From positions 1 to 64,000 of the forward strand of contig JAJCZS010000022.1 in NCBI GenBank assembly GCA_029262275.1: a DNA stretch of 64,000 nucleotides. The letters are read 5' to 3'. Source of the stretch: Deltaproteobacteria bacterium (GTDB taxonomy: Bacteria; Desulfobacterota_D; UBA1144; Nemesobacterales; UBA2774). Below the pieces are notes generated by a model. The model made no database searches and had not been told where the DNA came from. It saw only the letters and a list, made by a program, of their open reading frames with translations. Below are positions 9,665 through 57,386 of the stretch, in pieces; position 1 is the stretch's first letter; every line of letters starts with the position of its first letter. Both the position numbers and the translations under genes were made by a program.

Positions 9665-9713
9665 CTTTATAGACCGAACGGTTAAAAATGAAGGGATGGG
9701 GAGGAGATTCAGG

Positions 9714-10574
9714 ATGAGTAGATTTTCTAGATGGGTATTGGGTAATAGCTATATAGTTTTAACAGCTCCGTTTATGTTTCTTTTGTTGGTTGCTTTTCCA
9801 ATGGAATTCTCTAGTGCTCAAGAAGATGGGGTTACAATTAAGGTTTGTAGACCTAGCTCTGCTGTAGTTATTGCAACTGATGGTGGAGTGGTTGACTTAT
9901 CGGCTCTTGACGAGTCTGGGGTAGCAAGAGTATCAGGGGCTAAAGGAACTACTGAGAATGTAATAAGTGAGCTTAAGAAAGAATGTGGATTTACATCCTT
10001 TGTTCTTCTTGAAGGTGCCGGATCACAGGCGTCTGATGGAACAAGTGCTGTAAGCTTAAGAGCTTCGGACAAATACATAGATCCTACAACAGAAGCAATT
10101 CTTGACGCATGCAATTATAGTGTCGCAATCGTGGAGGTCCAAAAAGAGGATGTTTGTACTGGAGTTAGTGTTCCGGTGTGCACAGGAGACAAAAAAGCAT
10201 CTCCTTGGCTAGAACGAGATGAACAAAATAGAGAATACTTATGGTATCGCTTAGGAGCAGCCAGCCCATGGCTAGAAAAGGATGATCGTGGTTTTGTTTG
10301 GAGTGATTTACGAGCCAGTCCTTGGTTGGAATTAGATGCGAGCCCATGGCTGGAATTAGAAGCATCTCCTTGGCTTGAGAAGGAAGGGGAATTGTGTGTA
10401 GATGATAAAGGTTATCTATGGAGCAACTTAAACGGCTATCTGTGGAGCAATTTAAACGGCTATCTGTGGAGCAACTTAAATGGTTATCTATGGAGTAATT
10501 TAAACGGTTATCTCTGGAGTAACTTGAACGGTTATCTTTGGAGTAATGGAAGGGGCTATCTATGGAGCAACTAA
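9714..10574 (+). CDS. Secreted protein with SPWLE and GYLWSN tryptophan repeats
   Basis: 286 aa from ATG 9714, chosen over ATG 9696 because GGGGAGGAG (9698-9706) sits correctly for the later start. An N-terminal signal or anchor (roughly residues 8-37, ending SSAQ) precedes a small domain with several Cys (about 45-160). Then five copies of ASPWLE alternate with YLW/FVW-type segments, and the protein ends in seven copies of GYLWSN spaced by two residues, the last copy being the very C-terminus. Such YLWS-type tails are, from memory, seen on some exported subtilases, but no protease domain is present here. Probably a secreted repeat protein that binds or assembles on surfaces; function unknown. 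Confidence 0.75.
   Translation: MSRFSRWVLGNSYIVLTAPFMFLLLVAFPMEFSSAQEDGVTIKVCRPSSAVVIATDGGVVDLSALDESGVARVSGAKGTTENVISELKKECGFTSFVLLEGAGSQASDGTSAVSLRASDKYIDPTTEAILDACNYSVAIVEVQKEDVCTGVSVPVCTGDKKASPWLERDEQNREYLWYRLGAASPWLEKDDRGFVWSDLRASPWLELDASPWLELEASPWLEKEGELCVDDKGYLWSNLNGYLWSNLNGYLWSNLNGYLWSNLNGYLWSNLNGYLWSNGRGYLWSN
10197..10385 (+). repeat. Five ASPWLE-encoding repeats
   Basis: Within the preceding gene, codons for ASPWLE followed by a charged pair recur five times at unequal spacing (first two copies separated by about 19 codons, the last three by 8 codons). DNA of the copies varies at synonymous sites, so the protein motif seems selected. Confidence 0.8.
10410..10571 (+). repeat. Seven 24-bp tandem repeats encoding GYLWSNLN
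   Basis: 24-bp units (GGYTATCTNTGGAGYAAY plus a two-codon linker) run without interruption to the stop codon. The linker is LN in five junctions and GR in the last. Third-base differences between units (ggc/ggt, cta/ctg/ctc/ctt, agc/agt) indicate an older array under protein-level selection. Confidence 0.9.
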
Positions 10575-12684: not shown

Positions 12685-12863
12685 GTATGTAATAAAACTC
12701 TGTGAGGGGATTGATTATACCAGTATGAGAAAAGAATATCTAACTTTGCTCTAATTTTAATCTGGAATATAAATTTTGGTTGGGATGAAAAACATATCCC
12801 ACCTTGCTAAAGACCCCGTAATTTATACAATTAATATTGCGCGAGGTGGGATATGTTCACACT

Positions 12864-13286
12864 TCAGGAGGCTTGCTTTAACTCAAAATATGTAGCAGCG
12901 TTTCCGGGTTCGGGCACTATCAGTCCCTCTTGTTTTAAACCTTCCAAGTGGAGCTTGACTGCCCCCGTCATAAGTTCCTTAGTTTCTTCGACTGTATCGC
13001 CTACTACGACGCATCCGGGTAAGTCTGGGCTATATGCGGAGTAGCAGTTAGAAGACTCTTCGATGGTAAACTCATAATGGTCCTTTCCTATTATTTCTTC
13101 TGTTTCAAAACACTGATTTATTGAATGGAATAGGGCACCTTCACCTAGCTCCTTATCCATCCTGCAATTTATAGTAAGCCGGCTCTTTTTGCTTCTTAGT
13201 TTGAATTGTCTGTGGCATCCGCAAATCCTAACTAGATACCAGCCTTTATTCTCAACTAAAAATTTTATCATCTCTCTAACTCTCAT
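12864..13286 (-). CDS. Fused HicA-HicB toxin-antitoxin protein
   Basis: 140 aa. Residues 1-55 resemble HicA, an mRNA interferase with a double-stranded-RNA-binding fold: MRVREMIKFL...GWYLVRICGCHRQF, with the expected catalytic His25 and KELGEGALFHSINQ. Residues 70-130 resemble HicB: YEFTIEESSNCYSAYSPDLPGCVVVGDTVEE...LHLEGLKQEGLIVPEP. Normally these are separate genes; here one frame continues through both with no stop, about 12 linker residues between. The fusion may be inert, self-inhibited, or a regulator. It lies 45 bp after the CopG gene on the same strand and probably shares its promoter. Confidence 0.75.
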   Translation of the reverse strand: MRVREMIKFLVENKGWYLVRICGCHRQFKLRSKKSRLTINCRMDKELGEGALFHSINQCFETEEIIGKDHYEFTIEESSNCYSAYSPDLPGCVVVGDTVEETKELMTGAVKLHLEGLKQEGLIVPEPGNAATYFELKQAS

Positions 13287-13331
13287 TGTGCCATCCTCTC
13301 TTTGAGTGTGTCTCCACTTTGCCCGTCTTAT

Positions 13332-13547
13332 CTATTCTTTTTCGTACATTAATACATTGTCATATTGTGGCCCAGTCATATGCTCATCCAGAAAATTTGA
13401 TAGGGCTTCTTCAATTATCTTTGACTGACTAGTTCTGCTCATAAATGAATACAGGCGTAGCCTCTCATATAGAAGAGAGGGGATATATAGTGAGCCTCTA
13501 TGCATTTTATTCGGGTTAGCTCTTTGTTGTATGGTTCTTTCAGTCAC
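13332..13547 (-). CDS. CopG-like ribbon-helix-helix regulator
   Basis: 71 aa with a probable ribbon-helix-helix: RGSLYIPSLLYERLRLYSFMSRTSQSKIIEEALSNFLDEH split as strand, helix, turn, helix (residues 17-56). GTG at 13547 is favoured because the -10 box of a strong predicted promoter ends 6 nt before it, as in two other regulators of this window; the alternative is ATG 13505, which would begin just before the RHH fold. A perfect 20-bp palindrome sits in the promoter spacer, a fitting operator for a dimeric RHH protein. Upstream of the HicA-HicB fusion, so it may be part of that module. Confidence 0.65.
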   Translation of the reverse strand: MTERTIQQRANPNKMHRGSLYIPSLLYERLRLYSFMSRTSQSKIIEEALSNFLDEHMTGPQYDNVLMYEKE

Positions 13548-13553
13548 AAATTA

Positions 13554-13582
13554 TTTATAACATCATTACGTAATGATGTCAA
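13554..13582 (-). promoter_or_regulatory. Promoter with palindromic operator for CopG-HicAB
   Basis: On the minus strand TTGACA (13582-13577), a 17-bp spacer, then TATAAA (13559-13554), 6 nt before the GTG start. The perfect palindrome ACATCATTACGTAATGATGT (13560-13579) fills the spacer and part of the -35 box, so a bound dimer would block RNA polymerase. Confidence 0.72.
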
Positions 13583-43196: not shown

Positions 43197-43253
43197 TTTA
43201 CTGCCTCCTGTTTTAGCAGCTTTGAGCTGCCGTTTTTTTGTGTTCGTAATATT

Positions 43254-43269
43254 AGTTGCAATTGCAACT
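43254..43269. promoter_or_regulatory. MarR-type operator, FGVQ operon copy 1
   Basis: AGTTGCAATTGCAACT, a perfect 16-bp palindrome, identical to the right-hand site at 57317. Preceded on the gene side by the conserved block GTTCGTAATATT shared with copy 2. Confidence 0.72.
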
Positions 43270-43370
43270 AAAAAGGATGCAGGAATTTTGAAGAAATATT
43301 AAAAATAGAGCTCCGCTGTTAATATGTTGTGTAGTAAAGGTAGGTTATGGGATGTCTAAATTGAAAAATA

Positions 43371-56773: not shown

Positions 56774-57247
56774 TTAAGAAAGTCCGCTTGCTTGAATGCG
56801 CTCAATGAAGTTCTTAAACTCTTTCAACTCTTTTTTGTTGAATTTGCAAAGAAAATTTTCCCTTACAACCCTCTCATAGACTGGCCACATCTTTTTTCGT
56901 AACTTTCTTCCCTTCTGAGTTATTGATGCGGTTCTCCCTCGGCCGTCATTAGGGCACTGGCCTCTTTCTACGAGTCCCTCTTCTTCAAGTCTCTGGGCCA
57001 ATCTGGTTACGTTATACTTATCAAGGAGCACCCTCTTGCCAAGGTCGTTTAAACGCAGCATTCCATTCTCAACACGCTCAAGCTCCCATAATACATCGTA
57101 CCAGCTTAGAGCAGGAAACCCCTTCTTCTTTAACTCTTCTTCAACTTTTTCTATTAAACTCTGCTGCGCCTGAACAAGCCCAATCCATGTGCTTGCCTCT
57201 GTTTCGGTCCACTTTGCGTCATTGCTACTTTTGTTTCCCTTCATCAT
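56774..57247 (-). CDS. MarR-family transcriptional regulator
   Basis: 157 aa winged-helix protein: GMLRLNDLGKRVLLDKYNVTRLAQRLEEEGLVERG (helices 2-4) and DGRGRTASITQKGRKLRKKM (wing). One Cys (C-P-N-D) lies just before the wing and one near the C-terminus (NFLCKF); they might sense oxidants. GGAGGAATATG precedes the start. The divergent intergenic region holds two identical palindromes, and the same palindrome occurs at two other loci, so it likely controls them. Confidence 0.9.
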   Translation of the reverse strand: MMKGNKSSNDAKWTETEASTWIGLVQAQQSLIEKVEEELKKKGFPALSWYDVLWELERVENGMLRLNDLGKRVLLDKYNVTRLAQRLEEEGLVERGQCPNDGRGRTASITQKGRKLRKKMWPVYERVVRENFLCKFNKKELKEFKNFIERIQASGLS

Positions 57248-57279: not shown

Positions 57280-57332
57280 GTTGCAATTGCAACAAGACTG
57301 TGATATACATATTAATAGTTGCAATTGCAACT
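57280..57332. promoter_or_regulatory. Two MarR operators with face-to-face promoters
   Basis: GTTGCAATTGCAAC occurs at 57280-57293 and 57318-57331, centres 38 bp apart. Rightward: -35 TTGCAA (57281), 17 bp, TATACA (57304). Leftward: -35 TTGCAA (57330), 17 bp, TATATC (57307-57302). Each operator covers one -35 box and the start site of the other promoter. Confidence 0.75.
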
Positions 57333-57386
57333 ATAGTGGATTCAAGAAATTTAGATTTGAAAAAAACTTTTAGGAGGTAGATCAGT

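Follow-up and report, generated by a model that had tools for sequence, protein, structure and literature searches.

A HicA-first HicA–HicB fusion encoded behind an RHH gene in one bacterial family: a candidate self-inhibited RNase

The contexts in which HicA occurs, 14 in number, have been listed by Gerdes 2024 (PMC10865869), and in the accessible text of that article classes 11 to 13 are proteins in which HicA and HicB are fused. In class 11 HicA is joined to a HicB that has a C-terminal HTH or RHH domain, in class 12 a small HicB is joined to HicA with HicB first, and in class 13 the fusion contains a large HicB. Class 1 of the same list is two-gene hicAB with a small HicB, the regulation of which is raised there as a question; likewise, operons encoding HicB without a DNA-binding domain are reported to be common, and their control is again posed as a question. 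A role as phage sensor has also been proposed there for fused HicAB, with CapRel cited as a tested precedent. The word 'fused' is absent from the accessible text of a 2024 HicAB review (PMC11594946).

Here we describe a locus found in the window, that is, the whole 64-kb stretch of DNA that was analysed, in which a HicA and a HicB-like domain lie within a single open frame of 140 codons. The features of the locus are as follows:

13554–13582, minus strand: predicted sigma70-type promoter of the RHH gene, with its −35 at 13577–13582, a 17-bp spacer inside the palindrome and a −10, TATAAA, at 13554–13559
13560–13579, minus strand: perfect palindrome of 20 bp (10+10 nt, 100% complementary, no spacer), a probable operator
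13332–13547, minus strand: RHH (CopG-type) gene, GTG start, 71 aa, assigned by profile match
13291–13300, minus strand: predicted purine-rich ribosome-binding site of the fusion gene, GAGAGGATGG in the source genome, with GAGGATG in 8/8 genomes
12864–13286, minus strand: HicA–HicB fusion gene, 140 aa, ATG to TGA, in the same frame in eight genomes
13113–13286, minus strand: HicA domain, residues 1–58 (Pfam residues 4–52; structure model)
13080–13112, minus strand: linker, residues 59–69, with low model confidence at 59–68
12867–13079, minus strand: small HicB domain of partial RNase H type, residues 70–140 (Pfam 73–132; structural matches)
12791–12857, minus strand: hairpin after the fusion stop codon, with 17-nt arms that are 94% complementary

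Compared with the accessible descriptions in Gerdes 2024, the protein resembles class 11 in being one chain with HicA first and HicB second; however, class 11 has a C-terminal DNA-binding domain, a part that this chain lacks, and the RHH protein is here the product of a gene of its own in front. It is like class 12 in that a small HicB without a DNA-binding domain forms part of one chain, but in class 12 HicB comes first and here HicA is N-terminal. Domain order and sizes are those of class 1, although here the two are fused and have a dedicated RHH gene; split relatives of the class 1 type are present in the same phylum (loci L018, L019 and L020). EzeT and CapRel share with the fusion a toxin that has an antitoxin domain in cis, a likeness of working principle only, as their toxin enzymes differ (a kinase and tRNA pyrophosphorylation, respectively; PMC10865869, accessible text). 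A chain of HicA and small HicB behind an RHH gene does not feature in the accessible portion of the Gerdes list. The sequence-only reading of this DNA had taken known HicAB systems to be two genes, which the three fused classes of that list make outdated. Fused HicAB is thus already known; the HicA-first, small-HicB chain behind an RHH gene is what looks new, and it looks to have been kept for a long time.

Both domains of the fusion were recognised by Pfam above its cut-offs of 27 bits, HicA_toxin (PF07927) at residues 4–52 (E 5.9e-7, 29.9 bits) and HicB_lk_antitox at residues 73–132 (E 4e-9, 37.1 bits), and the HicA part is by family an RNase domain of the dsRBD type. The Pfam scan found neither an HTH nor an RHH domain in the fused chain, which stops eight residues beyond the HicB match. 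Reading on past the TGA gave early stops or dissimilar peptides, as judged by eye, and readthrough was rejected. The last three residues are Gln-Ala-Ser in 8/8 genomes (12867–12875, minus strand), though the residues just before them vary. NCBIfam and PADLOC assigned no family to the protein, and the source genome holds no other HicA match.

A structure model was built from the source protein, two relatives and viral HicA and HicB rows (an earlier model, A8, had been poor at pLDDT 63.5, and alignments A4–A7 were discarded with their HicA rows misplaced). It can be seen in this model (pLDDT 76.3, pTM 0.70) that the chain adopts a HicA fold (helix 3–14, strands 16–22, 25–30 and 36–40, helix 49–56) and a HicB fold of three strands and a long helix, with the low-confidence stretch of the linker between them. 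Against solved structures, Foldseek gave HicA of 6g26 and HicB of 4p78 as best matches with probability 1.00, none having an E-value below 0.001. VIA gave, on the HicB side, HicB of 6u0i (Z 6.5, rmsd 1.6, 62 aligned) and of 6hpb (Z 6.3, 1.4, 61) and, on the HicA side, HicA of 6g26 (Z 6.1, 1.7, 58); matches to HIT hydrolases across both domains (Z at most 4.7) were read as a common arrangement.

With the source protein as query, the full-length single-frame fusion was found in 8 of the 60 genomes searched (G000, G002, G004, G006, G007, G009, G010 and G011), which belong to one family and four genera and include Thermodesulfobacteriota bacterium DHS20C13 and a Candidatus Dadabacteria isolate. 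Each copy is 140 aa long, and the relatives are 67–94% identical to the source copy; at none of these loci are toxin and antitoxin separate genes as in classical two-gene hicAB. The wider searches started from a profile of the source family, which divergent fused families may escape; they returned eight fusions among 57 genomes of the source phylum, the same eight, all in the source family, among 386 relatives, and none among 17 genomes of a second phylum. The one genome of a third phylum gave no match either, in a search that had no positive control. The 386 relatives also show split pairs in the same frame with stops between. Domain profiles identified two one-frame fusions among 105 loci, both in known carriers (L002 and L003); the 80 viral loci and the 18 from other genomes had none, and the related pairs outside the carriers are split. 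One genome that carries the fusion also has, at another place, a small HicB-like frame on its own (L077, G007:C2:361940–362155). The search for the same fusion elsewhere that had been proposed from the sequence therefore found it in relatives, at 8/60 genomes and within the source family only.

The RHH gene precedes the fusion gene by 45 bases on the same strand. Its product matches RHH_3 barely above the cut-off (E 9.4e-5, 22.7 bits against 21.6) and RHH_1 (CopG) below it (E 0.0075). Searched against plasmids and phages it gave no match at E 0.01 and, at E 10, weak RHH matches only, in plasmids. It has one match each in exactly those 8 of the 60 genomes that carry the fusion. Upstream, the 23-nt sequence TTGACATCATTACGTAATGATGT, which holds a consensus −35 and the perfect 20-bp palindrome, is identical in all eight, at a constant distance from the RHH start codon. 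The promoter was read from the sequence and the alignment; a consensus scan omits it, as that scan accepts a −10 only if its sixth letter is T. As the −10 lies 6 nt from the GTG, the RHH mRNA is likely to be leaderless.

Perfect palindromes of at least 20 bp are expected 0.09 times in the 64-kb window from its base composition, and three were observed; the other two have a common core sequence unlike that at the RHH promoter. Of 16 genomes searched for the exact RHH palindrome six were carriers, and each of these had it once, at the RHH–fusion locus only. Regulation of other genes by the RHH protein was considered and set aside, there being no further exact palindrome in the six carriers; a site with two mismatches in G000 (C13:24216) was no better than a reversed-pattern control. 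From its position and conservation we conclude that the palindrome is the probable operator of an autorepressor. The likeness to CopG/RHH autorepressors is that of a small RHH protein with a palindrome in its own promoter; the differences are that this protein occurs at this locus only (60 genomes searched) and that its Pfam match is weak.

Elsewhere in the window, the palindrome TTGCAATTGCAA (43253–43270 and 57280–57333) is present at 43261 and in two further copies between a MarR-like gene (56774–57247, minus strand) and a rhodanese-like gene (from 57387, plus strand), both named by eye; it looks like an operator common to a small regulon. A 292-aa protein (9696–10574, plus strand) has C-terminal 24-nt tandem repeats (GYLWSNLN units) and ASPWLE-type repeats.

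Behind the fusion gene a strong hairpin was found in each of the eight genomes, none of 200 shuffles being as good in any of them, for stretches picked after inspection. In the source genus the 16–17 bp stem and the 33-nt loop are conserved and the following 35 nt or so are not, while full-length copies of the hairpin are confined to this locus. Three other genomes have a different hairpin that starts at the fusion stop codon itself. Among hairpin stems behind ORFs of at least 110 aa, that of the fusion ranked 4th of 58 in the window, 1st of 20 at L012, 1st of 16 at L015 and 2nd of 17 at L016 (at L014 the target escaped the ORF caller). Similar hairpins thus lie behind other genes, and the idea of a special HicA target was dropped; an Rfam match to mir-944 was below threshold and taken as chance, Rfam giving nothing else. 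A tRNA-Ser gene sits between the fusion and a haem-oxygenase-like gene, and the hairpin is most likely the operon terminator, shielding the tRNA-Ser gene.

The most likely explanation for these features, to which we give about an even chance on the strength of sequence comparisons, is that the locus encodes a vertically inherited, self-inhibited RNase in an operon autorepressed by the RHH protein. The operon would consist of two genes, for the RHH repressor and the single-chain HicA–HicB protein. The HicB domain would shield the active site of HicA, either in the same chain or between the chains of a dimer, such that the protein is made inactive, and an RHH dimer bound to the palindrome between the −35 and the −10 would block transcription of both genes. 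The RHH protein would in this way do the job of the DNA-binding domain of HicB in classical hicAB that is missing here. The RNase would be freed only upon a signal, which might be a protease, a ligand or a phage product, that disturbs the HicA–HicB contact, acting on that contact or on the linker. Since a fused chain does not allow differential decay of the antitoxin, plain addiction is unlikely. The suggestion that CopG may have replaced HicB as repressor agrees with the absence of a DNA-binding domain from HicB, the occurrence of both genes in the same eight genomes and the invariant palindrome in the promoter.

It is also possible, though it seems to us on the unlikely side, that the RHH protein is a second antitoxin or co-repressor whose tail binds the fusion, making the locus an antitoxin-first type II module in which the toxin has a built-in brake. 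The gene order, with RHH ahead of the toxin-bearing protein, and the constant co-occurrence of the two are as such a module would have them. Moreover, the RHH profile match spans residues 19–56, and the tail outside it keeps G59, N64, V65, M67 and Y68 in 8/8 genomes, so that there is room for a partner protein, the simplest candidate being the fusion. However, the tail may be conserved for its part in folding, in forming tetramers or in binding DNA.

We asked of the HicA part whether residues linked to toxicity are retained. In the accessible text of a study of Burkholderia pseudomallei HicA (PMC3969222), substitutions G22C and H24A abolish toxicity, and S23A and P41A are tolerated. Gly22 and His24 have their counterparts in G23 and H25 of the fusion, invariant in all eight copies, which bears out the earlier statement that the HicA part carries His25 (codon 13212–13214). 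Position 24 is Cys in the source genus and Ser in the other carrier genera, and the Cys fits because S23A is tolerated in the B. pseudomallei protein. A self-inhibited toxin would be in keeping with the retained Gly/His pair and with a model of two domains. Other HicA positions differ from those common in split HicA: the stretch after QFK, mostly HP in viral split HicA, is LR in the fusions, and the C-terminal SILKQAG typical of the viral proteins is replaced by dissimilar letters, so RNase activity could be lost.

Selection was assessed by NG86 dN/dS, which was 0–0.056 for the HicA part (8/28 pairs estimable), 0.024–0.097 for the HicB part (9/28) and 0.043–0.187 for the RHH gene (10/28); the remaining pairs were saturated in dS and many estimates stand at dS > 1, hence these values are rough. 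The fastest-changing part of the fusion is the linker, residues 59–69. By these comparisons the fusion appears to be under strong purifying selection, and low dN/dS argues against its decay. It does agree with a further and rather improbable explanation, namely that HicA no longer works as an RNase and that the fusion serves as an RNA-binding regulator of dsRBD fold, locked by HicB and domesticated as a housekeeping protein. The very low dN/dS of the HicA part, the changed motif positions, the chromosomal site fixed across genera and the failure of the source fusion protein, used as query, to find a relative in viral contigs all point that way; the retention of G23 and H25 in 8/8 copies speaks against it and for an RNase that would be held inactive.

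The RHH gene, the fusion and the haem-oxygenase-like gene are found together in 8/8 carriers, and a PEMT-family gene accompanies them in every one, truncated in G004 where the contig stops. At L003 (G006:C208:2424–3040) the haem-oxygenase-like neighbour is in two overlapping pieces with stops, a pseudogene or a sequence error. The locus is absent from 8 of the 16 genomes of the family, and none of these showed an informative empty site: the G008 contig ends 271 bp beyond the haem-oxygenase-like neighbour, the G014 contig ends inside a PEMT-family gene, and neither G014 nor the other six yielded the haem-oxygenase-like neighbour. Its absence from half of the family counts against the favoured explanation. 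The patchy, mobile distribution of classical hicAB, which extends to phages and plasmids, was nevertheless not what we saw in the carriers: the locus occupies one chromosomal site in all eight, the source protein found no relative in viral contigs, and its plasmid and phage matches are less than 60% identical. Across genera the site is stable and its neighbours are ordinary genes, which speaks for a physiological role more than for a mobile defence cassette; the unit would be passed on by vertical descent and maintained for its own use, not as a mobile selfish element. By analogy with CapRel, the HicB part might instead act as both brake and sensor from which a phage product frees the RNase, as proposed for fused HicAB in the accessible text of Gerdes 2024. 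We regard this as improbable, since the site, near tRNA genes and enzyme-like and methyltransferase-like genes in 8/8 genomes, is unlike a variable defence island, and PADLOC gave no match.

That a recently lost stop codon joined two genes, as an artefact or in a decaying gene, would be an easy event, as split hicA and hicB often share a frame with a stop between, but eight genomes at saturated synonymous divergence and without indel or stop make it barely credible. The sequence-only reading accordingly stands for the fusion itself, a single 140-codon frame with both Pfam domains, and for the preceding CopG-type gene with a palindrome in its own promoter (13560–13579). It falls for a decayed locus, against which the dN/dS of about 0.00–0.10 in both halves (estimable pairs) and the single frame in 8/8 copies speak, for a frameshift, assembly error or missing stop, given the full-length protein in 8/60 genomes, and for two genes as the only known arrangement.

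Returning to the self-inhibited RNase, we would tentatively go further and suppose, as a doubtful extension, that the product of the leaderless RHH gene both represses the operon and clamps the HicA–HicB RNase via its tail; these two locks would make the locus a vertically inherited RNA switch of a Dadabacteria family, neither selfish nor directed against phages. The separate RHH gene and its invariant operator-like palindrome offer a concrete candidate answer, for one lineage, to the question of how HicB proteins without a DNA-binding domain are controlled. The signs that the fusion has long been maintained by vertical descent, in turn, raise the question of what purpose a covalently braked toxin may serve.
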